From: an uncultured Eubacteriales bacterium
GTDB lineage: Bacteria > Bacillota > Clostridia > Christensenellales > Aristaeellaceae
DNA: 56,623 nt
Assembly (NCBI GenBank): GCA_902765305.1
Contig: CACWZI010000050.1
Span: forward strand, 1 to 56,623
Reading direction: 5' to 3'
The translations under genes were made by a program, and so were the position numbers. The notes below the pieces were generated by a model. That model was not told where the DNA came from and did no database searches. It saw only the letters and a list, made by a program, of their open reading frames with translations. This document shows, one piece after another, positions 30,377 to 56,527 of the stretch (the stretch's first letter is position 1; each line of letters starts with the position of its first letter).

Positions 30377-30625
30377 AACTTCTGGTTTGTCGCGGGGCGA
30401 CAAATCAGAATTTGAGGTTTTAGGTGTTAGGTTTTAGGTGTTAGGGAAGGAGGAAATCCTTACGGATTTCTTTTGATTTAAAGGGTTGGGAAGCGTTAAA
30501 ACCTCTGCCATTGCCTTTGAATCAAACAAATCCCGAAGGGATTTGAACCTCCACCTAAAACCTAACCCCTAAAACCTAAAACCTGACTTCTGATTTATCG
30601 AGCACAGCTCGATAAATCAGAAGTT
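30377..30625. repeat. Dispersed nested-hairpin element R5
   Basis: A 249-bp copy of the two-hairpin class. End A hairpin (TTTGTCGC...GCGACAAA type) at 30377-30413, end B hairpin (TTTATCGAGC...GCTCGATAAA) at about 30587-30624. Between them, arms of GGTTTTAGGTGTTAGG and its near complement, small palindromes GAAATCC..GGATTTC and CAAATCCC..GGGATTTG, and TTTGATTTAAAGG / CCTTTGAATCAAA. It reaches the ROK stop codon on one side and the pepT ribosome-binding site on the other. R6 is nearly identical. Confidence 0.92.
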
Positions 30626-31568
30626 ATCGTCCCAGCATCGCCGCGCCGATGATGCCGGCGTCGTTGGTGAGCCTGGCCAGCTCCACACGGGCGTAGGGCA
30701 TGCTCTTGAAGAACACGTATTTCGGCAGCAGGGAGCGCACGGCGTTGAGCAGGAAGTCGCCGCAGTGGGAGACGCCGCCGCCCAGCACGATGACCTCGGG
30801 GTCGTAGACGTTGATCAGGTTCGTCAGCCCCACCACCAGGTGGTAGATGTAGTCGTCGAAGATCTTCACGCAGTCCGCGTCGCCGGCCATGGCCAGGTCG
30901 ATCACGTCCTTGGCGGTGATGGTACGGATGTCGCCGTCCACATGCTTCATCAGCGTACAGCTCGGCTTTTCGGCGCACAGCACCCGCCCGGCGCGGATCA
31001 GCGCGGTGGCGCTGGCGTAGCGCTCCCAGCAGCCCCGCTTGCCGCAGGTGCAGGGCAGGCCGCCCGCCACGGTGACCATGTGGCCGATCTCGGTGGCCAC
31101 GCCGTGGGCGCCGGAGAACACCTTGCCGTTGAGCACCACGCCACCGCCCACGCCGGTGCCCAGCGTGATGAACACGCTGTTCTGCGTGCCGGCGGAGACG
31201 CCCTTGACCGATTCGGCCAGGCCCGCCACGGTGGCGTCGTTGTCCACGTACACGGGCAGGTCGGTGTACTGCTTCATCTCCTCGATGATGGGCACGTCGT
31301 GCCAGGCCAGGTTGGTGCAGAAGGGAATGATGCCGGTGCGCTGGTCCATGATGCCCGGTATGCCGATGCCGATGGCCTTGACCTCGTCCATGCGGCGGCC
31401 GGCCTTTTCCACGGTGGCCAGGCCCAGTTGGGCGATGTCGCGGATCACCGCGACGTAGCCGCGCTCCACCCCGGTGGGGCAGCTGTGCTTGAACAGTATG
31501 TTGCCTTCCTCGTCCACGAGCCCGGCCTTGATGGACATGCCGCCGACGTCGATGCCGATGTATAGCAT
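30624..31568 (-). CDS. ROK family sugar kinase (glucokinase-like)
   Basis: A 314-residue cytosolic ROK kinase. The ATP-binding start is GIDVGGMSIKAGLVDE, followed by GIGIPGIMD, YVDNDATVAGLAE, the metal-site GHMVTVAGG...CTCGKRGCWERYAS and LGGGVSHCGD. The length and zinc motif fit glucokinases. ATG 31568 has GGAGG upstream; the longer open frame lacks one. The stop codon touches element R5. It follows hprK by 32 bases, linking a sugar kinase to the carbon-catabolite regulator. Confidence 0.9.
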   Translation of the reverse strand: MLYIGIDVGGMSIKAGLVDEEGNILFKHSCPTGVERGYVAVIRDIAQLGLATVEKAGRRMDEVKAIGIGIPGIMDQRTGIIPFCTNLAWHDVPIIEEMKQYTDLPVYVDNDATVAGLAESVKGVSAGTQNSVFITLGTGVGGGVVLNGKVFSGAHGVATEIGHMVTVAGGLPCTCGKRGCWERYASATALIRAGRVLCAEKPSCTLMKHVDGDIRTITAKDVIDLAMAGDADCVKIFDDYIYHLVVGLTNLINVYDPEVIVLGGGVSHCGDFLLNAVRSLLPKYVFFKSMPYARVELARLTNDAGIIGAAMLGR

Positions 31569-31600
31569 AGTGATTACCTCCGTTATATATGAGTCAAAAT

Positions 31601-32524
31601 TTACTCCTCCAGATTGTTCTGGAACCGGGCCATGTGGCGGCGGGTCAGCTCGTTGGCAGCGTTGTAGCCCATCTGCTTGAGGCGCAGGTTGCGGGCGGCC
31701 ACCTCCAGCACCACGGCCAGGTTGCGGCCCGGATGGATGGGCAGCAGCAGGCTGGGCACCTTCACGCCCAGTATGTCGATGTAGTTGTCCGTCAGGCCCA
31801 GGCGGTCGTATTCCTTGTCCGACTGCCACAGCTCCAGGTGGATGACCATGTCGATGTGCTTGCTGCGCATGATGGCGCCGGCGCCGTACATCGTGGAAAC
31901 GTCGATGATGCCCACCCCGCGGATCTCCATGAAGTGGCGCACCAGCTCCGGCGCCTCGCCGATCAGCCGGTTGTCCTCCACGCGGCGGATGTCCACCACG
32001 TCGTCCGCCACCAGCTGGTGGCCGCGCTTGACCAGCTCCAGCGCCGCCTCGCTCTTGCCCACGCCGCTGTTGCCGGTGATCAGCAGGCCCGCGCCGAACA
32101 CGTTCACCAGCACGCCGTGGCGGGTCTCCCGGGGGGCCAGCCGGTCGCGCAGGAAGGCGATCAGGTCCAGCTCGAACTGGGTGGTCTCCTTGTTGGTGGA
32201 ATAGATGGGGATCTTGCGGGCCATGCCCATCACCAGCATCTCGTCAAAGCAGGGATAGCCCCGGCAGATGATGATGCAGGGCAGGGGATAGTTGAAGTAC
32301 TTCTGCAGCCGCTCCCGCCGGGTCAGCTCGTCCAGCTGGGACAGGTAGGTCATCTCCACCTTCCCCAGCAGCTGGGGCCGCTCGTAGGGAAAGAAATCCC
32401 AGTAGTTGGCAAACTGCATGCCGGGACGGTTGGTGTTGCTGACCTCGATGTTCAGCGTCTTGGCATCGGTGGCCATCACCCGGGTCAGGCCGAGGGTATT
32501 GACAAAATCAGCTTCGGAAACCAT
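31601..32524 (-). CDS. hprK: HPr kinase/phosphorylase
   Basis: A 307-residue bifunctional enzyme that phosphorylates and dephosphorylates Ser46 of HPr to control carbon catabolite repression in Firmicutes. The P-loop is GNSGVGKSE, followed by ALELVKRGHQLVADDVVDI with the catalytic His/Asp region, IRGVGIIDVSTMYGAGAI (the family signature) and a C-terminal helix. Full length. Element R6 lies between the HAD gene and hprK, leaving 28 bases upstream of the ATG. Confidence 0.97.
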   Translation of the reverse strand: MVSEADFVNTLGLTRVMATDAKTLNIEVSNTNRPGMQFANYWDFFPYERPQLLGKVEMTYLSQLDELTRRERLQKYFNYPLPCIIICRGYPCFDEMLVMGMARKIPIYSTNKETTQFELDLIAFLRDRLAPRETRHGVLVNVFGAGLLITGNSGVGKSEAALELVKRGHQLVADDVVDIRRVEDNRLIGEAPELVRHFMEIRGVGIIDVSTMYGAGAIMRSKHIDMVIHLELWQSDKEYDRLGLTDNYIDILGVKVPSLLLPIHPGRNLAVVLEVAARNLRLKQMGYNAANELTRRHMARFQNNLEE

Positions 32525-32552
32525 GCTTGTTCCTCCTGTGGATGAGTTGGGA

Positions 32553-32823
32553 AACTTCTGATTTGTCGCGCTGCGACAAATCAGAATTTGAGGTTTTAGG
32601 TGTTAGGTTTTAGGTGTTAGGGAAGGAGCCCTAAAGGACTAGCTCCGCGTCGGAAATCCTTACGGATTTCTTTTGATTTAAAGGATTGGGAAGCGTTGAA
32701 ACCTCTGCCATTGTCTTTGAATCAAACAAATCCCGAAGGGATTTGAACCTCCACCTAAAACCTAACCCCTAAAACCTAAAACCTGACTTCTGATTTATCG
32801 AGCACAGCTCGATTAATCAGAAG
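32553..32823. repeat. Dispersed nested-hairpin element R6
   Basis: A 271-bp near-copy of R5, same orientation: end A hairpin at 32553-32589, end B hairpin at about 32785-32823. It carries an extra 25-bp block starting CCCTAAAGGACTAGCTCCGC (32629) inside the left arm. It runs from the HAD stop codon to just before the hprK ribosome-binding site. Confidence 0.92.
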
Positions 32824-33648
32824 CTACATTGCCCCGATCAGATTGGCTGCGATGTACTGCTCGATCACCTGCGCCACGCCGTCCTCGGTGTTGGGCGGGG
32901 CGACGAGGGGGGTGCAGGCCAGGGCCTGGGGGCAGGCGTTGGCCATGGCGTAGCCCGCGCCGGCGTACTTCAGCATGGGCACGTCGTTCTGGCCGTCGCC
33001 GAAGGCCATCACCTCGTCGGGGGAAAGGCTCAGGTGTTGGGCCAGGGTGGCCAGCGAGCGGCCCTTGTCCACGCCCTCCGGGGCGATCTCCAGGAAGTGG
33101 GGCTTTGATTTCAGGTAGCACGCGCCGTGGGGAAAGGCCTTACGCAGCGCGGCCTGTATGCGGTCCGCGCCCTCGGGGGTGTCGATGACCAGCATCTTTT
33201 GCATGTCCGACGGGTTCTGCTCGAGCCACCGGGCCATGGGCATGCCCACCGGCGTGGCGGGCACGTTGATCTGGCGGGCGTAGGCCCGGGTGCAGTCGCG
33301 TATTTCGCTGCAATAGTAGCCCTTGCCGGGGTAGAGCTGGATGTAATAGCCCATGGCCTCCGCAAGCTTTACGATGCCCAGCGCCGTCTCAAAGGGGATG
33401 CGGGGGGCAAACAGCGTCTCGTCGGTGCGGTGGTCGTAGATCATCGCGCCGTTGTACAGCAGCATCGGCGCGTTCACGCCGATCATTTCGGCGAAGGGCA
33501 GCATGGCCTCCAGCATCCGCCCGCTGGACAGCGCAATGCCGCAGCCCCGGGCCATGGCGGCGTCCAGCGCCCGCTTCGTGCGCGGCGACAGCCCCGCCGA
33601 GGCATCCAGCAGCGTATCGTCCAGGTCGGTGGCGATCAATCGTATCAT
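32824..33648 (-). CDS. Cof-type HAD-IIB phosphatase
   Basis: A 274-residue HAD hydrolase of the Cof/YidA type, dephosphorylating sugar or cofactor phosphates. Motif I is DLDDTLLDA, motif II SSGRM, then a cap domain with YNGAMIYD, and motifs III/IV at KGRSLATLAQHL...MAFGDGQNDVPMLKYAG. First gene of the ten-gene minus-strand run, with its own promoter at 33683-33711. Its TAG stop directly touches element R6. Substrate cannot be told from sequence. Confidence 0.93.
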   Translation of the reverse strand: MIRLIATDLDDTLLDASAGLSPRTKRALDAAMARGCGIALSSGRMLEAMLPFAEMIGVNAPMLLYNGAMIYDHRTDETLFAPRIPFETALGIVKLAEAMGYYIQLYPGKGYYCSEIRDCTRAYARQINVPATPVGMPMARWLEQNPSDMQKMLVIDTPEGADRIQAALRKAFPHGACYLKSKPHFLEIAPEGVDKGRSLATLAQHLSLSPDEVMAFGDGQNDVPMLKYAGAGYAMANACPQALACTPLVAPPNTEDGVAQVIEQYIAANLIGAM

Positions 33649-33682
33649 GGCGGTTCTTACCTTTCATATATATCCATTCTCT

Positions 33683-33711
33683 ATTGTAACGCATTTTGGA
33701 GGCGGATGCAA
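33683..33711 (-). promoter_or_regulatory. Promoter of the HAD-hprK-ROK-pepT run
   Basis: On the minus strand TTGCAT, 17 bases, TACAAT, about 35 bases before the HAD ATG. Element R7 ends six bases upstream of the -35 box. Confidence 0.65.
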
Positions 33712-33717
33712 CGGGGA

Positions 33718-33998
33718 AATTCTGATTTGTCGCGCTGATGCGCACCCAAAAGCCTTCCCCAGGCAGCGGAGCTGCCGGTTCAGGGGAAGGTGGATTGCCG
33801 CGAAGCGGCAAGACGGATGAGGTCGTCCTCCTGGAACGAAGCTTGTAAATCATAGTTGCCGCAGGGAGACCGACCTCATCCGACCCGCTACGCGGGCCAC
33901 CTTCCCCTGAACCGCTCCCTTTGGTCGCTGGGGAAGGCTTTTGGTTACGCTACCAACCATTCCCTATTGGTTTGTTATCTCCCCGCCAAATCAGAATA
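33718..33998. repeat. Dispersed repeat element R7 (CCTTCCCC class)
   Basis: Left end AAATTCTGATTTGTCGCGCTG, right end CCGCCAAATCAGAATA. The interior resembles R4: AAAAGCCTTCCCCAGGCAGC arm and its complement, plus GACGGATGAGGTCG / CGACCTCATCCG. Its right end cuts the reading frame of a PBECR-type gene remnant. Confidence 0.85.
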
Positions 33999-34197
33999 TG
34001 GTGAATTGAATACAAGCGAAGTCATTATAACAGATGAACGAGTGCAGCATATTCAAGAGCATCATCCGACGGATTATGGCTTGTACGGATAGTCCTGAAC
34101 ACAGAAATTCGGTCATGACTTTCTATCGTATTCGGACCAAAAATCTTGAAAAGCTCATGGCTAGACATAAAGTGCTTTACAAAAGGCAAGAAGAGTG
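33991..34197 (+). pseudogene. Decayed PBECR-type (phage-associated RNase-like) gene remnant
   Basis: Starting at the edge of element R7, one frame reads SEVIITDERVQHIQEHHPTD, then stops at 34092; another frame later reads NSVMTFYRIRTKNLEKLMAR and ends HKVLYKRQEE. These resemble the start and end of small PBECR-domain proteins (BECR-fold RNases tied to phages). The middle is missing and the frames differ, and there is no start codon, so the gene is dead. Family assignment is from memory of the ITDER...H...HP and LYKR motifs. Confidence 0.5.
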
Positions 34198-34204
34198 ATA
34201 TAAT
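34176..34204 (+). promoter_or_regulatory. Near-consensus promoter of a small RNA
   Basis: TTTACA (34176-34181), a 17-base spacer and a perfect TATAAT (34199-34204). Predicted transcription start is about 34211. It overlaps the end of the PBECR remnant. Confidence 0.75.
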
Positions 34205-34210
34205 TCAGAC

Positions 34211-34365
34211 GGAGGGGAGTTCGAAGTAGAGATTGTGCTGCTACGCACCCTTGTGGTTAAAAGAAATGCGGGAGGGGGCACACCCGCCGAGTAACCTCCA
34301 ACGGTTACAAAAGCAGGCCATCGTTTTCGGTGGCCTATTATTATATCGCCTTTGGGCGTTTTTTT
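34211..34365 (+). ncRNA. Candidate structured small RNA, about 155 nt
   Basis: No open frame, but a strong promoter in front and a terminator at the end. Visible helices: GGAGG (34211) with CCTCC (34295) closing the body; GCGGG (34268) with CCCGC (34283); and GTAACC (34291) with GGTTAC (34303), which is mutually exclusive with the closing helix because they share CC. A nine-bp hairpin AGGCCATCG-TTTT-CGGTGGCCT (34315-34336) follows, then a second small hairpin CGCC-TTT-GGGCG and seven T. It ends about 38 bases before the rluA-type gene's own promoter, so it is probably a free-standing RNA. Class not recognised. Confidence 0.55.
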
Positions 34366-34402
34366 AATGATAACGCCTCGCCTCCCTCTGCCAATTCACC
34401 AT

Positions 34403-34431
34403 TTGCTTTCTGAACTTAAAAATGGTAGAAT
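34403..34431 (+). promoter_or_regulatory. Promoter of the pseudouridine synthase gene
   Basis: TTGCTT, 17 bases, TAGAAT, then GGAGG and the ATG at 34453. Confidence 0.6.
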
Positions 34432-34452
34432 CATACTGGAGGATGAGGCCAT

Positions 34453-35178
34453 ATGATCGAACGTGTTCACGCAGGGCGGTTTGACATCGGCGTGCTGTAC
34501 GGGGACAACCACCTGCTGGTGGTGGTGAAGCCGCCGAACCTGCCGGTTCAGGCGGACCGCTCGGGGGACGACGATCTGCTGAGCATAATGAAGGGTTATA
34601 TTGGAAATAAATATCAAAAGCCGGGGAACGTCTACCTGGGGCTGGTGCACCGGCTGGACCGGCCCGTGGGCGGGGTGATGGTGCTGGCCCGCACGTCCAA
34701 GGCGGCGGCGCGGCTGTCGGCGGCCTTCGCGGCCCACGAGCAGGACAAGCGCTATCTGGCGGTTCTGCAGGGGACAATGACCGGGGAGCGGACGCTGGAG
34801 GACGCGCTGCTCAAGGACGGGCGCACGGGCACGGTGCGGGTGGTTTCCCCGGAGGCGCCGGGGGCCAAAAACGCCCGGTTGCGCACGCGGCCCCTGGGCT
34901 CCCGGGAGGGGCTGACCCTTTCCGAGGTGACGCTGTACACCGGCCGGGCCCATCAGATCCGGGTGCAGCACGCCCACGCCGGCTTCCCGCTCTGGGGCGA
35001 CGCCCGCTACGGCGGGGGAAGGCCGGGCCAGCAGATCGCGCTGTGGGCGGCGTCGCTGGCGCTGGAGCACCCCACGCGGCACGAAACCATGCGCTTTTCG
35101 GCCCCGCCGCCAAAGGACGGGGCGTGGCGGGCATTCGACGGAGAAATCCACAGGTGGTTTGAGGAGATCGAAGCATGA
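34453..35178 (+). CDS. RluA-family pseudouridine synthase
   Basis: A 241-residue enzyme that converts uridines in rRNA or tRNA to pseudouridine. The catalytic motif is GLVHRLDRPVGGVMVLAR with the essential Asp, preceded by NHLLVVVKPPNLPVQ and followed by LYTGRAHQIRVQHAHAGFPL and WGDARYG. It lacks an N-terminal S4 domain, like the short RluA types. The target site cannot be told from sequence. The stop overlaps the next gene start as ATGA. Confidence 0.92.
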   Translation: MIERVHAGRFDIGVLYGDNHLLVVVKPPNLPVQADRSGDDDLLSIMKGYIGNKYQKPGNVYLGLVHRLDRPVGGVMVLARTSKAAARLSAAFAAHEQDKRYLAVLQGTMTGERTLEDALLKDGRTGTVRVVSPEAPGAKNARLRTRPLGSREGLTLSEVTLYTGRAHQIRVQHAHAGFPLWGDARYGGGRPGQQIALWAASLALEHPTRHETMRFSAPPPKDGAWRAFDGEIHRWFEEIEA

Positions 35179-35540
35179 AGAAGGAACGGGGTTGGCGCTG
35201 GGCGGTCATATTCGCGACCTGCACGCTGGCGGTGCCCATGGTGGCGGCGCTGATGGGCTATTACGGCGGGGCGATACCCACGCTGGCGCAGGCGAAGCCC
35301 GGCCTGTTGACCGGCGCGCTGCTGGGCGTGGCCCATCTGCTGCTGCGGCCCGTGCTGCGGTTCGTGTCCGCGCCCCTGGGCTGCCTGACCCTGGGGCTGT
35401 TCGGCCTGGTCATCGACGTGGGGCTGCTGTACGGCTGCGATTACCTCGTGGACGGCTTCGAGGTGCCGGGGCTGCTGTACGCGGTGGTGACGGCGATCGT
35501 GATCAACGCGATCTGCGCCGTGGCGGCAGGGCGAAAGTAA
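35175..35540 (+). CDS. Phage holin family 4 / PF04020-type membrane protein
   Basis: A 121-residue integral membrane protein with about four hydrophobic segments: residues 10-28, 40-60 (LLTGALLGVAHLLLRPVLRF), 66-88 and 98-118. The LRPVLRFVSAPLGCLTLGLF stretch is typical of PF04020 proteins, named phage holin family 4 but mostly chromosomal with unknown function. It overlaps the pseudouridine synthase gene by 4 bases. No other phage genes lie near. Confidence 0.75.
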   Translation: MKKERGWRWAVIFATCTLAVPMVAALMGYYGGAIPTLAQAKPGLLTGALLGVAHLLLRPVLRFVSAPLGCLTLGLFGLVIDVGLLYGCDYLVDGFEVPGLLYAVVTAIVINAICAVAAGRK

Positions 35541-35597
35541 AAGTTAGAATAAACTAATTTGTTCATGTTCAGTCAACAATCCTTGCCTATAATTCAT

Positions 35598-35625
35598 TTG
35601 ACATCCGATGAAAGCGGTGTATAAT
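35598..35625 (+). promoter_or_regulatory. Promoter of the DUF1385 gene
   Basis: Perfect TTGACA and TATAAT boxes with 16 bases between them, about 54 bases before the ATG. Confidence 0.8.
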
Positions 35626-35678
35626 ATAGTAGGATTGGTGTGACGGGCGCTGGGCCCGTTGCGGAAAGGAACATACAA

Positions 35679-36608
35679 ATGGCGACAAAGAAGACGAGCA
35701 TCGGCGGCCAGGCGCTGATCGAGGGCATCATGATGCGGGGCCCGAAAGTCACGGCCATGGCGGTGCGCAATGTCAATACCAAGCAGATCACGCTGGAGGA
35801 ATATCCCACCAAGGGGCAGGACCGGGCGGCGTTCTTCAAGCTGCCCTTCATCCGGGGCATATTCAACATGATCGATTCGCTGTCCTTCGGCTACAAGTGC
35901 CTGATGCGCTCGGCGGAGCTGTCCGGCATCGAGGACGAGGAGGGCGAGGCGAAGAAGGAGCCCTCGACCTGGGACAAGATCTTCGAGAAGCTGATGATGC
36001 CCATCGCCACGGTGTTGGCCGTGGTGCTGGCGCTGGGGCTGTTCGTGTGGCTGCCGGAGCAGCTGTGGAAGTGGCTGACCAACGCTGCGCCCGCGGTGGC
36101 CCAGAACTACTACCTGCGGGCCTGCTTTGCGGGCGTGATGCGCATCGTGCTGTTTGTGGGCTACGTGTGGGCGACCTCGCTGATGAAGGACATCCGCCGC
36201 ACCTACATGTACCACGGGGCCGAGCACAAGACCATATTCTGCTACGAAAAGGGCCTGCCGCTGACGGTGGAGAACGTGCGGCCCCAATGCCGCTTCCATC
36301 CCCGCTGTGGCACGTCGTTCATGGTGCTGATGCTGATCGTGGGCATCGTCGTGTCCATGTTCATCCGCATCGACAACGTGCTTCTGAGGACGGCGGTGAA
36401 GCTGCTGACCTTCCCCATCGTGGTGGGCGTGGGCTACGAGCTGATCAAGCTGGCGGGCCGGGCCGACAACCTGTTCACCCGCATCATCTCCGCCCCGGGC
36501 AAGTGGCTGCAGCACATCACCACCCGCGAGCCCGACGACAGCATGATCGAATGCGCCATCGCCGCGATGAACAAGGTCATTCCGGACGACGGGAGCGATA
36601 CGTGGTGA
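35679..36608 (+). CDS. DUF1385 membrane protein (YqhQ-like)
   Basis: A 309-residue membrane protein of the DUF1385 family, widespread in Firmicutes. The N-terminus GGQALIEGIMMRGPKVTAMA is diagnostic. Membrane segments lie near 105-125, 145-165, 210-235 and 250-265; a conserved cytoplasmic stretch YMYHGAEHKTIFCYE and RFHPRCGTSF holds His and Cys residues that could bind metal. Function is not established. ATG 35679 is preferred to upstream TTG because of GGAAAGGA before it. Its stop codon directly touches element R8. Confidence 0.85.
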   Translation: MATKKTSIGGQALIEGIMMRGPKVTAMAVRNVNTKQITLEEYPTKGQDRAAFFKLPFIRGIFNMIDSLSFGYKCLMRSAELSGIEDEEGEAKKEPSTWDKIFEKLMMPIATVLAVVLALGLFVWLPEQLWKWLTNAAPAVAQNYYLRACFAGVMRIVLFVGYVWATSLMKDIRRTYMYHGAEHKTIFCYEKGLPLTVENVRPQCRFHPRCGTSFMVLMLIVGIVVSMFIRIDNVLLRTAVKLLTFPIVVGVGYELIKLAGRADNLFTRIISAPGKWLQHITTREPDDSMIECAIAAMNKVIPDDGSDTW

Positions 36609-36944
36609 AAATCTGATTCATCGAGCTTTGCTCGATGAATCAGATTTGAGTGATTAGTGGTTAGTGATTAGTGGTTAGTGATTAGCGGTTAGTGGCTAGT
36701 GACTAGTGATGGTGCCCTAAAGGACTAGCTTCGCGTCGCAAATCCTTTCAGGATTTGTTTGATTCAAGGGGAACGATAGGAGTTTCAACGTTTCTAGGTC
36801 TTTTAAGTCAAAAGAAATCCGTGAGGATTTCATCCTTCACTAAGTCAAAAGAAATCCGTGAGGATTTCATCCTTCACTAGCCACTAATCACTAGCCACTA
36901 GCCACTCAAATTCTGATTTGTCGTGGAGCGACAAATCAGAATTT
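36609..36944. repeat. Dispersed nested-hairpin element R8
   Basis: A 336-bp copy in the opposite orientation to R5. End B hairpin (ATCTGATTCATCGAGC with its complement) at 36609-36647, end A hairpin at 36908-36944. The arms are here GTGATTAGTGGTTAG repeats and CTAGCCACTAATCAC, different from R5 yet complementary to each other. It includes the CCCTAAAGGACTAGCTTCGC block (36715) and an internal tandem duplication of about 38 bp (36800-36880). It lies between the DUF1385 stop and the next gene's ribosome-binding site. Confidence 0.92.
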
Positions 36945-36966
36945 CACCGACCAACAGAGGTATATC

Positions 36967-39000: not shown

Positions 39001-39010
39001 TTTCTGAATC
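38992..39010. repeat. Possible relic of a repeat-element end at the stop codon
   Basis: ACTTCTGATTT at 38992-39002 matches the outermost part of the element ends and supplies the TGA stop. The inner part (TTTGTCG or TTTATCG) is absent. It is short enough to be chance. Confidence 0.25.
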
Positions 39011-39022
39011 GAAAAATAATTG

Positions 39023-39051
39023 TTGAAAATGGATGAATATTGCGGTATAAT
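39023..39051 (+). promoter_or_regulatory. Promoter of the DUF1508 gene
   Basis: TTGAAA, 17 bases, perfect TATAAT, then AGGAGG and ATG 39085. Confidence 0.8.
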
Positions 39052-39084
39052 GTCATCAATACCAAATACAAGGAGGAAAAGAGT

Positions 39085-39453
39085 ATGGGTAAGTTTCAGG
39101 TAAAGAAGACCGATGCAGGTTTCTCGTTCAATCTGGTGGCGGACAACAACGAGATCATCGCCACTTCTCAGGTCTACACCACGAAGGCCGCCTGCCTGAA
39201 GGGCATTTCCAGCGTGGAGAGCAACGCGCCGTTTGCCCCCATCGAGGATCAGACGGTGAAGGACTACGCCGCAGAGAATAATCCGAAGTTTGAAATCTTC
39301 AAGGACAAGGCTGGCGAATTCCGCTTCCACCTGAAGGCTGAAAACGGCGAGATCATCGCTGCCAGCGAGGGCTACAAGGCCAAGGACGGCTGCCTGAAGG
39401 GCATCGACTCCGTCAAGTACAATACCGTCTGGTCTGACATCCAGGAGATCTGA
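39085..39453 (+). CDS. YegP family protein with two DUF1508 modules
   Basis: A 122-residue soluble protein made of two DUF1508 repeats: GKFQVKKTDAGFSFNLVADN...YTTKAACLKGISSVESNA (about 1-57) and PKFEIFKDKAGEFRFHLKAE...YKAKDGCLKGIDSVKYNT (about 66-118). The family function is unknown. It has its own strong promoter and terminator, so it is monocistronic and probably well expressed. Confidence 0.88.
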   Translation: MGKFQVKKTDAGFSFNLVADNNEIIATSQVYTTKAACLKGISSVESNAPFAPIEDQTVKDYAAENNPKFEIFKDKAGEFRFHLKAENGEIIAASEGYKAKDGCLKGIDSVKYNTVWSDIQEI

Positions 39454-39465
39454 CATCCCCTTCGA

Positions 39466-46715: not shown

Positions 46716-46752
46716 AAATTCTGATTTGTCGCGTTGCGCCAAATCAGAATTT
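46716..46752. repeat. Solo end-A hairpin (R9)
   Basis: AAATTCTGATTTGTCG and CGCCAAATCAGAATTT form one hairpin with a single mismatch, without arms, core or end-B hairpin. It lies between divergent genes, upstream of both promoters. It is the same unit that forms end A of R5, R6, R8, R10 and R11. Confidence 0.85.
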
Positions 46753-49509: not shown

Positions 49510-49512
49510 GCC

Positions 49513-50493
49513 ATGCCGGCGATCATTACATTCCTGCAGAACGCCATTCGCCAGGGCATCTGCATACTCTTCGGCGCCAACGGCGAGATACTGACCGAGA
49601 AATCCGGCAACCTGAACCTGGGCGTGCCCGGCATGATGTACATGGGCGGCATCGCCGGCCTGGCGGCGGCCTTCATGTACGAGCGGGGGACCCAGACGCC
49701 CAACCCCTCGGTGGGCTTCCTGCTGGCGCTCATCGCGGCGCTGGTCGCCGGCGGCCTGGGCGGGCTGGTCTACAGCGTGCTGACCATCTCCCTGCGGGCC
49801 AACCAGAACGTCTCCGGCCTGGCGCTGACCACTTTCGGCGTGGGCCTGGGCAACTTCTTCGGCGGCTCCCTTTCCAAGCTGGCGGGCGGCGTGGGCCAGA
49901 TCTCCACCGCGGCCACGGCCAGCGCCTTCCGGCTGACGCTGCCCGTGCTGCGGGACATCCCGGTGGTGGGCGACGTGCTGTTCAGCTACGGCCTGTTGAC
50001 CTATATCGCCATCGCGGTGTCCGTCGTGATGTCCTGGTACCTGAACCGCACCCGCCAGGGCCTGTGCCTGCGGGCGGTGGGCGAGAACCCCGCCACCGCC
50101 GACGCCGCCGGCATCAACGTGTCGCTGTACAAGTACCTGGCCACCGTCATCGGCGGGGCCATCTGCGGGCTGGGCGGCCTGTACTTCGTGATGGAGTACT
50201 CCGGCGGCACCTGGACCAACAACGGCTTCGGCGACCGGGGCTGGCTGGCCGTGGCGCTGGTGATCTTCGCCCGCTGGCGTCCGCTGAACGCCGTGTGGGG
50301 CTCGCTGCTGTTCGGCGCGCTGTACATCCTCTACCTGTACATTCCCGGCCTGGGTCGCAGCACCCAGGAGATCTTCAAGATGCTGCCCTACGTGGTCACG
50401 ATCATCGTGCTGATCCTGACCAGCCTGCGCAAGAAGAAGGAGGACCAGCCGCCGGAGAGCCTGGGGCAGCACTACTTCCGCGAGGAGCGGTAG
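49513..50493 (+). CDS. Nucleoside-type ABC transporter permease 2
   Basis: A 326-residue permease of the COG1079 type, with about eight to nine membrane segments. The N-terminus [20 protein letters not shown] and [14 protein letters not shown] are the usual start; [18 protein letters not shown] is the conserved coupling loop. It begins 3 bases after permease 1. Substrate is likely purine or pyrimidine nucleosides, which would fit the salvage enzymes at the left of the window, though they are far apart. Confidence 0.9.
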
Positions 50494-50496
50494 AGC

Positions 50497-50525
50497 GTTG
50501 GTGGAGTCGACAGTTCGACTCCAAC
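50497..50525 (+). terminator. Terminator after the ABC transporter operon
   Basis: GGAGTCGA pairs with TCGACTCC over a CAGT loop, extended by GTTG/CAAC with one mismatch, followed by AAAATTTTCC. Confidence 0.65.
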
Positions 50526-50544
50526 AAAATTTTCCCCGGGGTCT

Positions 50545-50573
50545 TCCCATTCCCTGTAAAATAGTGTATAATA
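50545..50573 (+). promoter_or_regulatory. Promoter of the rubredoxin gene
   Basis: TTCCCA, 17 bases, perfect TATAAT, about 36 bases before the ATG with GGAGG. Confidence 0.6.
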
Positions 50574-50608
50574 TCTTTACATCCCATCAGAATAACGGAG
50601 GTAACACC

Positions 50609-50767
50609 ATGGCAAAGTATGTTTGCGACGCTTGCGGCTGGGAATATGACGAGGAACTGGGCAGCCCCGAGAACGGCATCGCCCCCGGCACCAAGTTTGC
50701 CGACCTGCCCGACGACTTTGAGTGTCCCCTGTGCGGCGTGGGCAAGGACATGTTCTCTGAAGCCTGA
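50609..50767 (+). CDS. Rubredoxin
   Basis: A 52-residue one-iron electron carrier. Two CxxC(G) iron-binding motifs, [11 protein letters not shown] and [14 protein letters not shown], with the aromatic core (Tyr4, Trp, Phe) and [12 protein letters not shown]. It carries electrons in anaerobic metabolism or to peroxide/oxygen-detoxifying reductases. ATG 50609 follows GGAGG; longer frames are not needed. Confidence 0.97.
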
Positions 50768-50789
50768 TCGAAGAAACGACCGAGGCAAT

Positions 50790-50816
50790 GCAGGGGCGCC
50801 GATTCGGCGCCCCTGC
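50790..50816 (+). terminator. Hairpin after rubredoxin
   Basis: GCAGGGGCGCCGA pairs with TCGGCGCCCCTGC, 13 bp with a one-base loop, so the tip opens in practice. No T-run follows; it may still block or slow transcription into the next gene. Confidence 0.6.
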
Positions 50817-50852
50817 GGCATATGACCCTGGACCATCCAAGGAGGTTATCCG

Positions 50853-52229
50853 ATGAACCATGAATTTGACGTTGCGGTGCTCGGCGGCGGGCCGGGCGGC
50901 TACGAGTGCGCGATTCGCTGCGCCCAGCTGGGCCTGAAGACGGCCCTGGTGGAGGCGCGGGAGCTGGGCGGCACCTGCCTGAACCGGGGGTGCATTCCCA
51001 CCAAGGCGCTGCTGCACGGCGCGGAGCTGTACGCCTACGCGAAGTCCGGCGGCGATTTCGGACTGATCACCGACGGGCTGACGCTGAAATACCCCCAGCT
51101 GGCGGCCTATAAGGACGACAAGGTCAAAAAGCTGGTCGCGGGCATCGAGGCGCTGGAGAAGGCCCACGGCGTCGAGGTCATCCGCGGCTTCGGCAGGCTG
51201 ACCGGGCCCAATGCCATGGACGTCGAGGGCCGCAAAATCACCTATGACAAGCTGATCCTGGCCATGGGCAGCGCCCCGGCGAAGCCCCCGGTGCCGGGCA
51301 TGGAGAAGGCCCATACCAGCGACGACGTGCTGTCGGCCACCGACCTGCCCAGCGGGGCCATCATCATCGGCGGCGGCGTGATCGGCATCGAGTTCGCCAC
51401 GCTGTTTTCGTCCCTGGGCAAGAAGGTGACCGTCATCGAGATGATGCCGGACATCCTGCCGGGCTGCATCCCGGAGATCACCGCCAAGCTGAAGGCCCTG
51501 CTGAAGAAAAAGGGCGTGGAGTTCATACTGGGGGCGAAGGTGGTCGAGGTGGTGAAGGGCCGCACCGTGCGCTTCGAGAAGGACGGCGTGACCGACGAGC
51601 GGCAGTCCGCCACGGTGATCGTCTGCGCGGGCCGCAAGCCGATGACCCGGGACTGCGGCCTGGAGACCATCGGCCTTCAGACGGACCGGCGGGGCTTCAT
51701 CGAGGTGGACGAGGGCCTGCGCACCGCCGTGAAGGACGTCTATGCCATCGGCGACATCACCGGCAAGATCCAGCTGGCCCACGTGGCCTCGGCCCAGGGC
51801 ATGGTGGCCGCGGCGAACTGCGCCGGCCAGGACAAGGCCATGCGCTACGACCGGGTGCCCGCCTGCATCTACACCCTGCCGGAGATCGCCTGGGTGGGCA
51901 TGACCGAGGAGGCCGCGAAGGCCGCGGGCCACGAGGTGACCGTGGGCAGCTTCAACGTGGCCGCCAACGGCCGCAGCATGGTGATCAACGAGCCCGTCGG
52001 CCTGATCCGCCTGATCGTCGACAAGGCCGACGGCAAGGTGCTGGGCTGCCAGATGATGGCGGCGCGGGCCACGGACATGATCGCCGAGATCGCCGCCGTG
52101 CTGGAGCTGGGCGGCACCGTCGAGCAGCTGGCGAACGTCATCCATCCCCATCCCACGGTCTCCGAGATCATCAAGGAGGCCGCCCACGACGCCGAGGGGC
52201 TGTGCGTGAACGCGATGCCGAGGAGGTAA
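50853..52229 (+). CDS. lpdA: Dihydrolipoyl dehydrogenase-like flavoprotein
   Basis: A 458-residue pyridine-nucleotide disulphide oxidoreductase. FAD motif LGGGPGGYECAIRCAQLG, redox disulphide GGTCLNRGCIPTKALLH, NAD motif GGGVIGIEFATLFSSLG, FAD site AIGDITG and the C-terminal catalytic HPHPTVSE. These indicate dihydrolipoamide dehydrogenase, the E3 of 2-oxoacid dehydrogenase or glycine cleavage systems. No E1, E2 or glycine cleavage genes are nearby, so its partner complex is not shown. The DUF89 gene follows by two bases. Confidence 0.9.
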   Translation: MNHEFDVAVLGGGPGGYECAIRCAQLGLKTALVEARELGGTCLNRGCIPTKALLHGAELYAYAKSGGDFGLITDGLTLKYPQLAAYKDDKVKKLVAGIEALEKAHGVEVIRGFGRLTGPNAMDVEGRKITYDKLILAMGSAPAKPPVPGMEKAHTSDDVLSATDLPSGAIIIGGGVIGIEFATLFSSLGKKVTVIEMMPDILPGCIPEITAKLKALLKKKGVEFILGAKVVEVVKGRTVRFEKDGVTDERQSATVIVCAGRKPMTRDCGLETIGLQTDRRGFIEVDEGLRTAVKDVYAIGDITGKIQLAHVASAQGMVAAANCAGQDKAMRYDRVPACIYTLPEIAWVGMTEEAAKAAGHEVTVGSFNVAANGRSMVINEPVGLIRLIVDKADGKVLGCQMMAARATDMIAEIAAVLELGGTVEQLANVIHPHPTVSEIIKEAAHDAEGLCVNAMPRR

Positions 52230-52231
52230 TC

Positions 52232-53101
52232 ATGCTTCTGAACGAGGGTTGCGTGGCCTGCCTGCTGCGCAGGAAGCTGGACAATTATCCGGCGGGGGCC
52301 GACCCTGAGGCCGTTTCGGAATACCGGCGGCGGGTGCGCTCGGTCATCGAGAACGGGCGGGGGTACAGCTCGCCGGAGGTGAATGCCGACATCAGCGCCA
52401 TCTACCGGGAGCTGTTCAGCCCGGAGCGGGACTATACGGGCGTCAAGCGCCGCTTCAACGCCCTGATGCTGGCGCTGGAGCCGTCGATCCAGGCGGACGT
52501 GGACGCCGCGCCGGACCCGCTCATGCGGGCGGTGCAGTACGCCATGGTGGGCAATTACATCGACTTTGCGGCCCTGGGGGAGATCGACGAGGGCGAGCTG
52601 CGCAGGCGGCTTTGTGCGGTGGACGCCATGGCGGTGGACCCGGCGGCGCTGGAGGCCCTGAGGGGCCAGGCGCGCGCCGCCCGCCGGGTTGCGCTGTTTA
52701 CCGACAACTGCGGGGAGATCGTCACCGACAAGGTGCTGCTGAGGACCCTGCGGCAGATGAACCCAGCGCTGGAGGTCGCCGTGATCGTGCGGGGCGCGCC
52801 GGTGGTGAACGACGCCACCGTGGAGGACGCCGAACAGGTGGGCATGGGCGCGGTGGCCCAGCGGGTGCTGGGCAACGGCTGCGACCTGCCCGGCGCGGTG
52901 CTGACCCGCATCTCCGCCGAGGCCCTGGCCGAGGTGGACGCCGCGGACCTGATCATCTCCAAGGGCCAGGCCAATTACGAGGGCCTTTCCGGCTGCGGGC
53001 GGAACATCTTCTATATATTTATGTGCAAGTGCGAGCTGTTCATCAATCGATTCAAGGTGCCCCGATTCAGCGGGGTGCTTACGAGGGAGGGCAAATTCTG
53101 A
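52232..53101 (+). CDS. DUF89/ARMT1-like metal-dependent phosphatase
   Basis: A 289-residue protein of the DUF89 (ARMT1-like) family, metal-dependent phosphatases proposed to remove damaged sugar-phosphate or cofactor metabolites. CVACLLRRK (Cys7, Cys10) at the start marks the CxxC subgroup; FTDNCGEIVTDKVLLR holds metal ligands and LIISKGQANYEGLSG the C-terminal motif. It is coupled to the dihydrolipoyl dehydrogenase gene. The last three codons (GKF and TGA) come from the terminal repeat of element R10, so the natural C-terminus may have been altered. Confidence 0.85.
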   Translation: MLLNEGCVACLLRRKLDNYPAGADPEAVSEYRRRVRSVIENGRGYSSPEVNADISAIYRELFSPERDYTGVKRRFNALMLALEPSIQADVDAAPDPLMRAVQYAMVGNYIDFAALGEIDEGELRRRLCAVDAMAVDPAALEALRGQARAARRVALFTDNCGEIVTDKVLLRTLRQMNPALEVAVIVRGAPVVNDATVEDAEQVGMGAVAQRVLGNGCDLPGAVLTRISAEALAEVDAADLIISKGQANYEGLSGCGRNIFYIFMCKCELFINRFKVPRFSGVLTREGKF

Positions 53102-53340
53102 TTTGTCGCGGAGCGACAAATCAGAATTTGAGGGGTTAGGGGTTAGGTTTTAGGGGTTAGGGGAGGAGGAAATCCTGCGGATTTCTTTTTATTCAAAGGA
53201 TTTGCGAAAGCCCAGAACCCCCGTAGTGTCAATAAAATCAAACAAATCCCGTAGGGATTTGCACCTCCCCTAACCCCTATCCCCTAAAACCTAATCCCTT
53301 AATTCTGATTTATCGAGCAAAGCTCGATAAATCAGAATTT
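53093..53340. repeat. Dispersed nested-hairpin element R10
   Basis: A 248-bp copy. End A hairpin at 53093-53129 (17-bp perfect stem), end B hairpin at 53301-53340. Arms are GGGGTTAGGTTTTAGGGG and complement, small palindromes GAAATCCTGCGGATTTC and CAAATCCCGTAGGGATTTG. It supplies the DUF89 stop codon and ends 28 bases before the NUDIX ATG. Confidence 0.93.
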
Positions 53341-53368
53341 GCCATCCAACACAAAAGGAGAGAGCCAC

Positions 53369-53884
53369 ATGACCGAACTCAGAGACAAGCGCGGCATGAC
53401 CGAGGCGGAGGCCATCGCGGCCTACCGCAAAAAGAACTATCCCAAGCCGGCGCTGACGGCGGATATCTGCATATTTGCCCGGGCGGGGGCGGGATGGAAG
53501 CTGCTGCTGATCCGCCGGGGCGGGCACCCGTACCTGGGGTGCTGGGCGCTGCCGGGGGGCTTTGCGGACGAGGGGGAGAGGATCGAATCCACCGCGGCCC
53601 GGGAGCTTCAGGAGGAGACCGGGCTTTCCGGCCTGGCGCTCAGGCTGGTGGGCATCTACAGCGCGCCGGGGCGCGACCCCCGGGGCTGGACCGTGTCCGC
53701 CGCCTATGGGACCCGGGTGGAGGCCCGGCTGGATGCCGTGGCCGACGACGACGCGGCGGAGGCCGGCTGGTTCGACGTGCGCCTGACGGCGGGCGGACCC
53801 TCCACGGTGGCGCTGCCCGAGGGCGGAAGATTGGCATTCGATCACGCCCAAATCATCGCCGACGCGGCGGCGATGCTGCTGTAA
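53369..53884 (+). CDS. NUDIX hydrolase
   Basis: A 171-residue pyrophosphohydrolase. The Nudix box GGFADEGERIESTAARELQE then ETGL fits GX5EX7REUXEEXGU exactly. Upstream LTADICIFARAGAGWKLLLI and CWALPGG are typical of ADP-ribose pyrophosphatase-like members. ATG 53369 has AAAGGAG upstream. It is followed after 35 bases by an aldo/keto reductase gene. Confidence 0.92.
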   Translation: MTELRDKRGMTEAEAIAAYRKKNYPKPALTADICIFARAGAGWKLLLIRRGGHPYLGCWALPGGFADEGERIESTAARELQEETGLSGLALRLVGIYSAPGRDPRGWTVSAAYGTRVEARLDAVADDDAAEAGWFDVRLTAGGPSTVALPEGGRLAFDHAQIIADAAAMLL

Positions 53885-53919
53885 AACGCAAAGGAATCAT
53901 CACAGGGAGGGCAATACCC

Positions 53920-54933
53920 ATGGCGGATATCGCAAATGTGTACCGGGCCGACGAAGGGCGCTACGAAACCATGCAGTATAACCGAGTGGGCCAAAGCGGC
54001 CTGAAGTTCCCGGCGGTCTCGCTGGGCTTCTGGCACAACTTCGGCTCGAACGGCGACTATGACAACATGAAGGCCATGTGCCGCACGGCCTTCGACCACG
54101 GCATCACCCAGTTCGACCTGGCCAACAACTACGGCCCCCTCCCCGGCAGCGCCGAGATCAACGCGGGCCGCATCCTCCGGGAGGACTTCAGGCCCTACCG
54201 GGACGAGCTGGTGATCGCCACGAAGGCGGGCTACGACATGTGGGACGGCCCCTACGGCAACTGGGGCAGCCGGAAGTACCTGGTGGCCAGCTGTGACCAG
54301 AGCCTGAAGCGGCTGGGGCTGGACTATGTGGACGTGTTCTACCACCATCGCATGGACCCGGAGACCCCGCTGGAGGAGACCATGGAGGCGCTGGATTTCA
54401 TCGTCAAGAGCGGTCGGGCGCTGTACGCGGCCATTTCCAACTACGACCGGGAACAGACTGCCCGGGCGGTGGAGATCATGCGCGGGCTGCACTGCCCGCT
54501 GATCGTGAACCAGCGGCGCTATTCCATATTCGACCGCACCATCGAGCAGGACGGCGTGAAGGCCTGGTGCCGGGAGAACGGCATGGGCATCATCGCCTTC
54601 AGCCCGCTGGCCCAGGGCCTGCTGACGGACCGCTACCTGAACGGCATCCCCGCGGACAGCCGCATCGGCCGGGACGGGCGCTTCCTGAAGGCCGACAGCC
54701 TGACCGAGGCGCGCCTTTCCCAGATCCGCGCCCTGAACGCCATCGCAGGCGAGCGGGGCCAGACCCTGGCCGAGATGGCCCTGGCCTGGATACTGAAGGA
54801 CGGCGACGTCTGCTCGGTGCTGATCGGCGCGTCCAGGCCGTCGCAGCTCCTGGACAACGTGAAGGCGGCGCAGAATTGCGCATTTACCGAGGAGGAGCTT
54901 CGGAAGATCGACGAAATCTGCGGAGTGGAATAA
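53920..54933 (+). CDS. Aldo/keto reductase, YghZ/Kv-beta type
   Basis: A 337-residue NADPH-dependent aldo/keto reductase. Catalytic Asp and Tyr in FDLANNYGPLPGSAE, Lys in VIATKAGYDMW, His in VFYHHRMD; the NADPH site at the end is VLIGASRPSQLLDNVKA. YDMWDGPYGNWGSRKYL is a hallmark of the L-glyceraldehyde-3-phosphate reductase (YghZ) group. ATG 53920 follows GGGAGGG. Unlike the reductase at 23848 it has no iron-sulphur domain. Confidence 0.92.
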   Translation: MADIANVYRADEGRYETMQYNRVGQSGLKFPAVSLGFWHNFGSNGDYDNMKAMCRTAFDHGITQFDLANNYGPLPGSAEINAGRILREDFRPYRDELVIATKAGYDMWDGPYGNWGSRKYLVASCDQSLKRLGLDYVDVFYHHRMDPETPLEETMEALDFIVKSGRALYAAISNYDREQTARAVEIMRGLHCPLIVNQRRYSIFDRTIEQDGVKAWCRENGMGIIAFSPLAQGLLTDRYLNGIPADSRIGRDGRFLKADSLTEARLSQIRALNAIAGERGQTLAEMALAWILKDGDVCSVLIGASRPSQLLDNVKAAQNCAFTEEELRKIDEICGVE

Positions 54934-54939
54934 AGTAAG

Positions 54940-54975
54940 ACGGCCGGCGCAAAAATGCATTTTTGCGCCGGCCGT
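54940..54975. terminator. Bidirectional terminator
   Basis: ACGGCCGGCGCAAAAA pairs with TTTTTGCGCCGGCCGT, a 16-bp stem with a four-base loop, between convergent genes. Confidence 0.85.
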
Positions 54976-54985
54976 TCTTATGGGA

Positions 54986-55480
54986 TCACTTCCCCGTCGC
55001 CTTGCGTATGGCGCCCAGCAGGTGCGCCCGCATGGCGTCGTCGGGCTGGATCACGGCGATGTTGAGGGCGTCGCTGTCCCGGTAGACCAGGGCCAGCGGC
55101 TCGAATTCGCATTGGGAGCGCGTGGCGTTCAACACCTTCGCCTGGGGGTAGCGCTGCTTCATGGCCTCGGGCGTGCCCCAGGCCTCCACCCGATTCAGCC
55201 AGATGTCGGCGGCGAAGCGCTCCCGCTTGCCGTAGGCGCGGCAGATGCGCAGCACGTCGTCGGTGGCGGTGTAGACGAAGCTCAGGGCGTACCAGTTCAG
55301 CAGGAACCAGGCGATGGCGCAGCCGTAGGCGATGAACAGCGCCGAGGACAGCACGCCGATGCGCTTCTGCATCAGTGTGAAGAACGCCGAGCCGGCGAAC
55401 ACGGCCAGCGCGATCAGCAGGATCAGCCCCACCCCCTGCAGGGCGGTGGGCTGTCGGTTACGCACGCTCTGCTTAAGCAT
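54986..55480 (-). CDS. Membrane protein of unknown function
   Basis: A 164-residue protein with two membrane segments near the start (about 18-36, LILLIALAVFAGSAFFTL, and 43-66, with LFIAYGCAIAWFLLNW) and a soluble C-terminal half (about 70-164) rich in charged residues. No family is recognised. It overlaps the upstream gene by 8 bases and shares its architecture of membrane anchor plus small soluble domain, suggesting the two products work together. Confidence 0.65.
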   Translation of the reverse strand: MLKQSVRNRQPTALQGVGLILLIALAVFAGSAFFTLMQKRIGVLSSALFIAYGCAIAWFLLNWYALSFVYTATDDVLRICRAYGKRERFAADIWLNRVEAWGTPEAMKQRYPQAKVLNATRSQCEFEPLALVYRDSDALNIAVIQPDDAMRAHLLGAIRKATGK

Positions 55481-56135
55481 GGCTTGCCTCCGTCAGGTCG
55501 CCGACCAGATACTCCAGGGCCTTCATGGCGGCCGCCTCGTTGCTGCCGCTGCCGGTGACGCACAGGAACGCCCCTCGGTTGTCAAAGGCGCCCATCTGCG
55601 CCAGCGCGTCCAGGCCGTCCAGCCGCAGCCCCGCGGTCCAGGTGCGTCTTTCGCCGCCCTCCTCGTCCTCGGTGGTGACCACGTAGGGCTCCAGGCCGAA
55701 TTGGCCCATCCAGCCCGACGCCAGGGCGTCGTCCAGCGGCGTCAGGGCGTCGGAGGTGACCAGCGCCTCCATGGCCTCCGCGCTGGCCAGGAAGGCGTCG
55801 CATTCGCCCACGGCCAGGCGGGTGACCAGCAGCATGCTGCTGGTATACACCTGGTCGTTGTACAGCATGCTCTCAAAGGCCACCTGTTGGATGGTCGGGT
55901 CGTCGGCCTGCACCCGAGAGAGTATGTCCGGGGCGAGGGCTTCCAGGGGCTCGGGGTTGGAATACCCCGCCGCCAGGTAGATATTCACGCTGGCCGTGTT
56001 GGGGATCCGGGGCCGCGTCATGGTCCAAAGCAGCTCTGCCCCCAGCAGGCCCAGCGCGATGCCCAGCAGGTAGAGCCACAGGTATTTTCGCAAATGCTCG
56101 CGCAGCGCGCGCCAGCTGAATCTTGTGTCCGGCAT
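55473..56135 (-). CDS. Membrane-anchored protein of unknown function
   Basis: A 220-residue protein with one N-terminal membrane segment (about 20-39, YLWLYLLGIALGLLGAELLW) and an extracellular domain. The residues after the helix (RPRIPNTASVNIYLAAGYSN) and the remaining acidic domain give no clear family. ATG 56135 is used because GGAGGC precedes it. Promoter at 56165-56193. First gene of a two-gene operon. Confidence 0.65.
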   Translation of the reverse strand: MPDTRFSWRALREHLRKYLWLYLLGIALGLLGAELLWTMTRPRIPNTASVNIYLAAGYSNPEPLEALAPDILSRVQADDPTIQQVAFESMLYNDQVYTSSMLLVTRLAVGECDAFLASAEAMEALVTSDALTPLDDALASGWMGQFGLEPYVVTTEDEEGGERRTWTAGLRLDGLDALAQMGAFDNRGAFLCVTGSGSNEAAAMKALEYLVGDLTEASHA

Positions 56136-56164
56136 GCCTGCCTCCGTCAATCTTGATATACCCT

Positions 56165-56193
56165 ATTATAAATCAGATTGGCCGGGGACGCAA
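56165..56193 (-). promoter_or_regulatory. Promoter of the two-gene membrane protein operon
   Basis: On the minus strand TTGCGT, 17 bases, perfect TATAAT, about 30 bases before the ATG. Confidence 0.65.
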
Positions 56194-56254
56194 GGGAAAA
56201 CTGGGGAAGACCCACGGCGAACGCATGAATTGCCAGACGGATCAGTCACATTCA

Positions 56255-56527
56255 ACTTCTGATTTATCGAGCTTTGCTCGATGAATCAGAATTTAGGGGT
56301 TAGGTTTTAGGGGTTAGGTTTTAGGGGTTAGGTTTTAGGGGTTAGGGGTTAGGGATGGTTCAAATCCCTCCGGGATTTGTTTTGAATTAAGGAAACAGCA
56401 GTGATTCTAACATTTCTCAGTTCTTTGATAAAAAGAAATCCGCAAGGATTTCCTCCTTCCCTAACCCCTAAAACCTAACCCCTAACCCCTCAAATTCTGA
56501 TTTGTCGCTTCGCGACAAATCAGAATT
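56255..56527. repeat. Dispersed nested-hairpin element R11
   Basis: A 273-bp copy in the R8 orientation. End B hairpin at 56255-56294, end A hairpin at 56492-56527. Arms AGGGGTTAGGTTTTAGGGG and complement; small palindromes CAAATCCCTCCGGGATTTG near end B and GAAATCCGCAAGGATTTC near end A, keeping the polarity seen in the other copies. Confidence 0.92.

Follow-up and report, generated by a model that had tools for sequence, protein, structure and literature searches.

Contig CACWZI010000050.1 of an uncultured Eubacteriales bacterium of the family Aristaeellaceae (assembly GCA_902765305.1) carries, in the 56,623 nucleotides analysed here (the window), five nested-hairpin elements, termed R5, R6, R8, R10 and R11, whose paired arms differ between copies and are complementary within a copy. 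The locus raises the question of how both arms of such an element can change and stay matched, and whether the elements move or are folds maintained by selection. They very probably belong to a mobile or recently mobile foldback family, found in one genus in the searches made here, with a conserved centre and variable, matched arms.

Five elements of one plan

All five elements were read directly in the window, and each copy followed the common plan proposed in the first-pass annotation of this DNA. From the outside to the centre, the plan comprises an end-A hairpin (TTCTGATTTGTCGC..GCGACAAATCAGAA type), an arm, the palindrome GAAATCC..GGATTTC (G-palindrome), a TTTGATT-type stem and the core. 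From the core outwards, these are followed by an AATCAAA-type stem, the palindrome CAAATCC..GGATTTG (C-palindrome), the complementary arm and an end-B hairpin (TTCTGATTTATCGAGC..GCTCGATAAATCAGAA type). The positions are as follows.

30377..30625, + strand: R5, whole element (direct reading, BLAST span, centre model match 30445-30553, +); A hairpin ~30380-30411, left arm to ~30450, G-palindrome 30453-30470, then the core; C-palindrome 30527-30545, right arm, B hairpin ~30588-30622
32553..32824, + strand: R6, whole element (centre model match 32645-32753, +); A hairpin 32556-32586, B hairpin ~32788-32822
36609..36945, - strand: R8, whole element with TTAGTGG-type arms (centre model match 36731-36839, -); B hairpin at the lower-numbered end, A hairpin at the higher-numbered end
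53092..53342, + strand: R10, whole element with TTAGGGG-type arms; A hairpin 53096-53126, B hairpin ~53303-53337
56253..56527, - strand: R11, whole element with TTAGGGG-type arms (centre model match 56353-56460, -); B hairpin at the lower-numbered end, A hairpin 56495-56525

The arms are built of TTAGGTG/TTAGGTT units in R5 and R6, of TTAGGGG with TTAGGTT in R10 and R11, and of TTAGTGG and its variants in R8. The words TTTGATTYAAAGG and CCTTTGAATCAAA, given as shared by the copies in the first-pass annotation, are kept just loosely in R8, R10 and R11; CCTTTGAATCAAA (up to 2 mismatches) matched 7 times in the window against 0.52 expected, a number reached in none of 100 shuffles.

R6 closely resembles R5 and has an additional ~24 nt inserted at the junction, ahead of the G-palindrome. 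This insert (CCCTAAAGGACTAGCTYCGCGTCG) lies at ~32630-32653, on the G-palindrome side, in R6 and at ~36714-36737 in R8. Read along the centre, it is reverse-complemented and on the C-palindrome side in R8 and in three further loci (L015, L024 and L265). In R8, the G-palindrome side of the element is also duplicated in tandem (~36800-36875).

The predicted fold of R10 was far more stable than those of shuffled sequences, both as RNA (-129.9 against -63.4 kcal/mol, z -13.9) and as DNA (-77.5 against -27.1 kcal/mol, z -14.7), and none of 200 shuffles was as good in either case. The predicted single strand forms an end hairpin, a long stem leading to a junction that bears two short hairpins, and the second end hairpin; the DNA prediction adds a third, central stem, giving a four-way junction.

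Distribution within the genus and beyond

A BLAST search of the window's genome with R10 gave 136 whole or partial matches over the two strands. A covariance model covering the 108 positions of the centre, based on 40 sequences, located at least 56 distinct copies in this genome and gave matches in 26 of the 28 genomes of the genus searched, the two without a match being G005 and G012 (G numbers denote genomes and L numbers loci). This search, suggested by the first-pass annotation, revealed a real dispersed family with dozens of copies, sister species included. Copies are numerous in G000, G008 and G001, the last among the richest in centre matches (at least 95, both strands counted), and G015 has undergone a recent burst of near-identical copies.

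Outside the genus, scans with stricter filters, by which weak matches are lost, gave no match in 77 genomes of other genera in the family (the 3 matches among 80 were all from genus members) and one match among 148 genomes class-wide, namely the window's own. An exact form of the C-palindrome occurred in the window's genome alone among 297 genomes of the order, two of which belong to the genus. Four of 41 genomes, one of them the window's own, had the exact A end hairpin; among the matches listed, it was also found in metagenome-assembled genomes labelled Clostridia, Clostridiales or Ruminococcaceae, several of them from goat, sheep or roe deer gut.

L215 of G019 and L296 of G000, from two species of the genus, share a 1.1-kb segment with an element at 99.5% identity, either through recent transfer or because a contig was misplaced. 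In the window's genome, nine contigs show a matching word no further than 90 bases from their start, so the elements probably break assemblies too.

Conserved centre and variable arms

From 255 extracted element rows, 232 had flanks, 223 of these were distinct, and in 153 both arms could be assigned to a class. Among the 223 rows, 45 were misreads in which an end hairpin had been taken as the C-palindrome, none of them with both arms classed. The class counts, the tree and the between-genome identities given below are free of these misreads; arm-match averages and gene context were recomputed on the 153 rows, since the versions based on 223 rows contained them.

Between genomes, the central modules were identical at 0.85 and 0.81 of positions, values biased upward because the central palindromes (up to 2 mismatches) had been used to extract the copies. 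Identity was 0.49 in the core and 0.53 and 0.55 in the two arms, at or near the floor of 0.51 obtained with shuffled right arms. In the other species that were looked at, the same centre mostly lies between arms without A/B hairpins. The ends vary between species and even among the near-identical copies of G015, ten of which have an almost identical centre and right arm and differ in the heptamer count of the left arm and in the outermost dozen bases.

A strict period of 7 nt was observed in both arms, with lag-7 matches of 0.65 and 0.68 compared with about 0.25 at other lags. Eight arm classes were defined by heptamer units picked after the data were seen: TTAGGGG/TTAGGTT, TTAGTGG, TTTAGTA, GGAATTA/GGAATGA, GGGAATG/GGAATTG, GAGAATT, GAGTGCA and GAGTTGG/GAGAGTT. 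Left and right arms belonged to the same class in 142 of the 153 elements and to different classes in 11.

On a tree of 126 centres, which has few informative columns and leaves most forks open, the arm classes required 35 changes; shuffled labels required 81, and the minimum is 7. One well-supported clade of 35 rows holds three arm classes.

Presence and absence at orthologous sites

The search for sites without the element, likewise suggested at the outset, was successful at positions orthologous to R5, R6, R10 and two sites of G015. R10 is absent from the orthologous site in L070 (G320), L180 (G008) and L181 (G009), the last having in its place 103 bp that do not match the element. R5 is absent in G017 and also in G008, G009 and G005, where the spacers differ. 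R6 is absent in G005 and G004, and its site in G009 is occupied by a degenerate element whose arms differ. By eye, the element at the first G015 site is absent from 10 of 11 distinct relatives' sites, G001 having one with other arms, and that at the second is absent from 5 of 7, with G001 and G016 carrying others. Since such element-free sites exist, vertical inheritance of all copies at the same sites, which would have spoken against a mobile hairpin, does not hold. At the first G015 site (L334, ~1400-1720), the insertion separates genes that in relatives share an ATGA overlap, and the upstream frame gains a new end, running into the element.

An orthologous site among the fetched loci was available for 35 of 144 elements, six of which aligned straight through; in one of these six (L303/L250), no alignment over the element was obtained on repeat. 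The gapped same-site pairs numbered 167, with one side occupied in 94, neither in 50 and both in 23, the last figure resting on loose criteria and including some solo hairpins or other repeats. Where both species were occupied and the flanks aligned only as far as the element, the arms usually differed.

G016 and G010 are 93.8% identical over 2.7 kb including the element and have different arms and opposite centres at this site; the G016 element itself has arms of two classes. At one site, G006 and G004 likewise carry GAGAATT and GGAATTA arms, respectively, with opposite centres. The same two genomes share the same element at two other sites, L315/L319, where it is at least as conserved as its flanks, and L164/L185, where another repeat is inserted in the G006 copy. 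The same-site pairs with other arms and opposite centres fit both rewriting in place and repeated insertion into short intergenic gaps.

Some relatives have a solo hairpin at a site where others have the full element, one relative has a half-hairpin footprint, and A/B hybrid hairpins also occur. Deletion between the two end hairpins, which resemble each other, is the simplest explanation for the solo, half and hybrid forms. In L187 (~552-654, compared with L162), an arm of a family element holds a separate element with long inverted ends (GAGTGTGTTTCTAAATGCC...), with CTA repeated on both sides.

Joint change of arms and hairpins

In the 153 elements, the two arms of the same copy matched with a mean score of 24.6, compared with 7.8 after shuffling. 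An element's own pair ranked at the 10th percentile among all pairs of the 153 and at the 5th among the other classes of the same genome.

The outer hairpins are clearer evidence of joint change than the heptamer arms. Among 213 A hairpins (from 251 candidates, with a loop of 3-4 and at most 6 mismatches per arm), 52 changes were compensated, 8 were double without complementarity and 84 were single; among 117 B hairpins (from 128 candidates, with the B signature), the corresponding numbers were 41, 1 and 87. About 3 compensated changes were expected in each set, so the claim that the two halves change together was borne out for these hairpins. Perfect hairpins are over-represented in this count, as loci L031-L139 had been fetched by exact A hairpins. 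With the commonest position removed, which may represent one inherited variant, 16 (A) and 19 (B) compensated changes remained, compared with 0.8 and 1.5 expected, respectively. In the A stem, compensation was concentrated toward the base. Pair counts on an automatic alignment (A2) were not used, because many elements are present in it on both strands, so that GC/CG exchanges are overcounted.

The state at the commonest position was compared between the A and B hairpins of the same element. In 44 clear cases among 48 elements, the two were alike in 27 and 10 and unlike in 7, an agreement that is due to lineage or to cross-copying.

Polarity of the elements

In the TTAG-type classes, the A hairpin stands beside the G-palindrome as a rule (44 elements with both hairpins called). 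The constant polarity previously noted in the five window copies is present there and does not extend to the relatives: in the GGAATTA class, all four elements with both hairpins called (three of G008, one of G018) have A beside the C-palindrome, CAAATCC. The same arrangement was found in two G000 copies with an A hairpin alone and in L078, L084 and L096. The uniform polarity characterises the lineages of the window. In L304 (G000:C29:500-1600), two family elements stand back to back and have one A hairpin in common.

Gene context and candidate movers

Gene context was determined with a simple, purpose-made gene caller. Three of 139 distinct elements with both arms classed were inside called genes, 2 were at gene edges, and the rest were intergenic, with 94 in tandem, 25 in convergent and 15 in divergent gene pairs (342, 77 and 73, respectively, for background adjacent pairs). 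Relative to tandem genes, the centre was oriented with them in 43 cases and against them in 51. A directional terminator or 3'-end element was rejected, as neither a strand bias nor a convergence bias relative to background was observed, and the strand-directed RNA function considered for the fold is not supported by the same orientation counts.

Y1 transposase domains were present in 4 of 5 genomes searched and had no match in G001. At seven Y1 loci from five genomes, fetched with 2.1-3.3 kb, a pattern search gave no family end hairpins and only degenerate palindrome matches, probably due to chance. A Y1 transposase was thus not linked to the family as a partner, G001 being rich in copies without one.

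Proposed explanation and alternatives

The explanation that we put forward, at about even confidence, is a non-autonomous intergenic foldback element of ~200-300 bp whose arms are kept matched by template switching together with heptamer slippage. Copies would spread by way of the folded form, and a trans-acting enzyme or copying process would recognise the conserved central four-way junction and not the variable ends. The arms would stay matched since they fold on each other: slippage may multiply one heptamer variant inside an arm, and replication may copy this variant to the other arm by switching template across the hairpin, sometimes flipping the intervening part. A more far-reaching version, which is tentative and on balance doubtful, is a new class of bacterial foldback elements, recognised by the junction, in which both sides, heptamer arms and end hairpins alike, would be rewritten together in place, one arm templating the other. 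If in-place copying of arms is real, an element could exchange its whole exterior and yet keep its fold.

Several results weigh against the explanation put forward here. Within the same class and genome, own arm pairs had no advantage over others (rank 0.485 compared with 0.5 expected, 116 elements), with the best rank of 0.30 in 17 G001 elements, the worst of 0.70 in 8 G004 elements, and 0.66-0.70 in the GAGTGCA class (16 elements of G004 and G006). As the own-pair advantage vanishes at this level, the arms changed together as lineages formed and not demonstrably in each copy; the original claim that they differ yet stay complementary stands between lineages, as the class agreement indicates, and is not supported copy by copy. 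Together with the 11 elements having arms of two classes, this leaves ongoing templating undemonstrated. Changes at the hairpin tips were one-sided. Frequent loop flipping, considered as a mark of template switching, was rejected, because inverted loops of A hairpins were a minority once oriented by the element (GGA 14 and TCC 5; GCT 15 and AGC 1; GTT 9 and AAC 0); an unoriented tally looks balanced merely because the hairpins lack orientation there. Independent insertion could account for the same-site pairs whose arms differ. No target duplication was evident by eye at R10 or in the G015 copies, where the flank pairs around the site differ as well. No mobiliser was found in a search that covered Y1 alone, other transposases and reverse transcriptases not having been searched for.

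An ordinary transposed repeat, in which a few founders with matched arms were amplified by some transposase and the copies then drifted independently, would account for the missing own-pair advantage, for the clustering of arm classes on the centre tree (35 changes, 81 with shuffled labels) and for the burst in G015. It leaves unexplained how new arms, matched on both sides, arose on the same centre, as they did at least 7 times and 35 times on the tree, and it does not predict the rare compensated changes in single hairpins that exceed expectation after removal of the commonest position. A transposase cutting at the termini would, moreover, not leave a conserved centre and variable ends. We regard this alternative as unlikely, though it deserves serious consideration.

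A selected RNA or DNA structure at gene ends (for termination, mRNA stability, or as a nucleoid or repair site), in which selection restores pairing, appears improbable. The very stable predicted fold of R10, the compensated hairpin changes, the nearly exclusive intergenic location and the conservation of the L315/L319 element are all compatible with it; the lack of strand preference, a gene-pair context resembling background, the absence of the element at many orthologous sites, the uncompensated hairpin tips and the lack of any Rfam family at the gathering threshold are not.

A REP-like element moved by a Y1 transposase (IS200/IS605 or TnpA-REP type) acting on folded single strands is highly improbable, as the hairpin ends, the intergenic spread, the lack of evident target duplication and the Y1 domains in most genomes searched are outweighed by copy-rich G001 without a Y1 match, Y1 loci without the end-hairpin patterns, and ends that differ between species.

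Remnants and other features of the window

Apart from the five elements, three partial features were found in the window.

22790..22841, strand not assigned: right-arm piece (TTCCCTAACCCCTCAAAT) followed by an A-type hairpin, adjoining a GC-rich repeat (sequence)
33719..33997, strand not assigned: probable remnant, A-type hairpin halves split by a GC-rich composite repeat (AAAAGCCTTCCCC...GGGGAAGGCTTTTGG) (inverted arms I17)
46719..46749, strand not assigned: solo A-type hairpin, without arms or centre (sequence)

The repeat that adjoins the arm piece and hairpin at 22760-22841 is similar to the GC-rich one at 33719-33997. A search of the window with Rfam 15 gave no family at the gathering threshold on any element; a skipping-rope RNA (RF02924) was found outside the elements, at 34216-34295 on the + strand (43.2 bits). 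Among eight proteins encoded by neighbouring genes, seven matched ordinary families (M20 peptidase, HPr kinase, HAD hydrolase, sulfatase, DUF1385, ARMT1-like and aldo/keto reductase) and one matched none.

Comparison with known systems

No bacterial element with this plan was found in the open-licence literature, the literal heptamer words included in the search. Eukaryotic foldback (FB-type) transposons have long inverted repeats built of short tandem repeats. The present family is likened to them by plan, as its inverted repeats also consist of short tandem repeats, and it differs in being bacterial, ~250 bp long, and equipped with a conserved four-way centre and, in some species, end hairpins.

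In miniature inverted-repeat transposable elements (MITEs), the termini are conserved and the target site is usually duplicated. The family shares with bacterial MITEs (reviewed in PMC10969869) its short, non-coding, dispersed and intergenic nature, its inverted repeats, and its presence or absence at orthologous sites. Their conserved terminal inverted repeats are not found here; the centre is conserved instead, and no target duplication that could be relied on was observed. REP and REPIN sequences with TnpA-REP (see also PMC8266576) are similar as palindromic intergenic repeats of high copy number with solo and composite forms, and different in that the present family has tandem-heptamer arms around a conserved junction and no linked Y1 transposase. 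The TAACTGA heptamer repeats of Beggiatoaceae and Cyanobacteria (PMC4679880) are also intergenic tandem 7-nt units; in the genome described in that source they are direct, with 169 sets compared with one inverted, whereas matched inverted arms around a fixed centre are found here.

Template switching at imperfect inverted repeats, described as making the arms alike and inverting the spacer (PMC8604942, PMC8794818), is a process and not an element family, and its action here is inferred, not directly shown. Joint change of both arms, by which template-switch evolution is recognised, was found for the outer hairpins and, for heptamer arms, at the class level alone. Covariation is usually taken as proof of a selected fold. 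The family offers a large natural set of hairpins across sister species (213 A and 117 B scored, with 153 elements having both arms classed), and its orthologous sites, which may be empty, hold a solo hairpin or a full element, or be inverted, could allow selection, template switching and founder effects to be told apart. A high-copy element that conserves its centre and not its ends points to an unfamiliar way of spreading. Compared with a bacterial MITE, the family is inside-out: the central palindromes are conserved, while the arms, core and ends vary.

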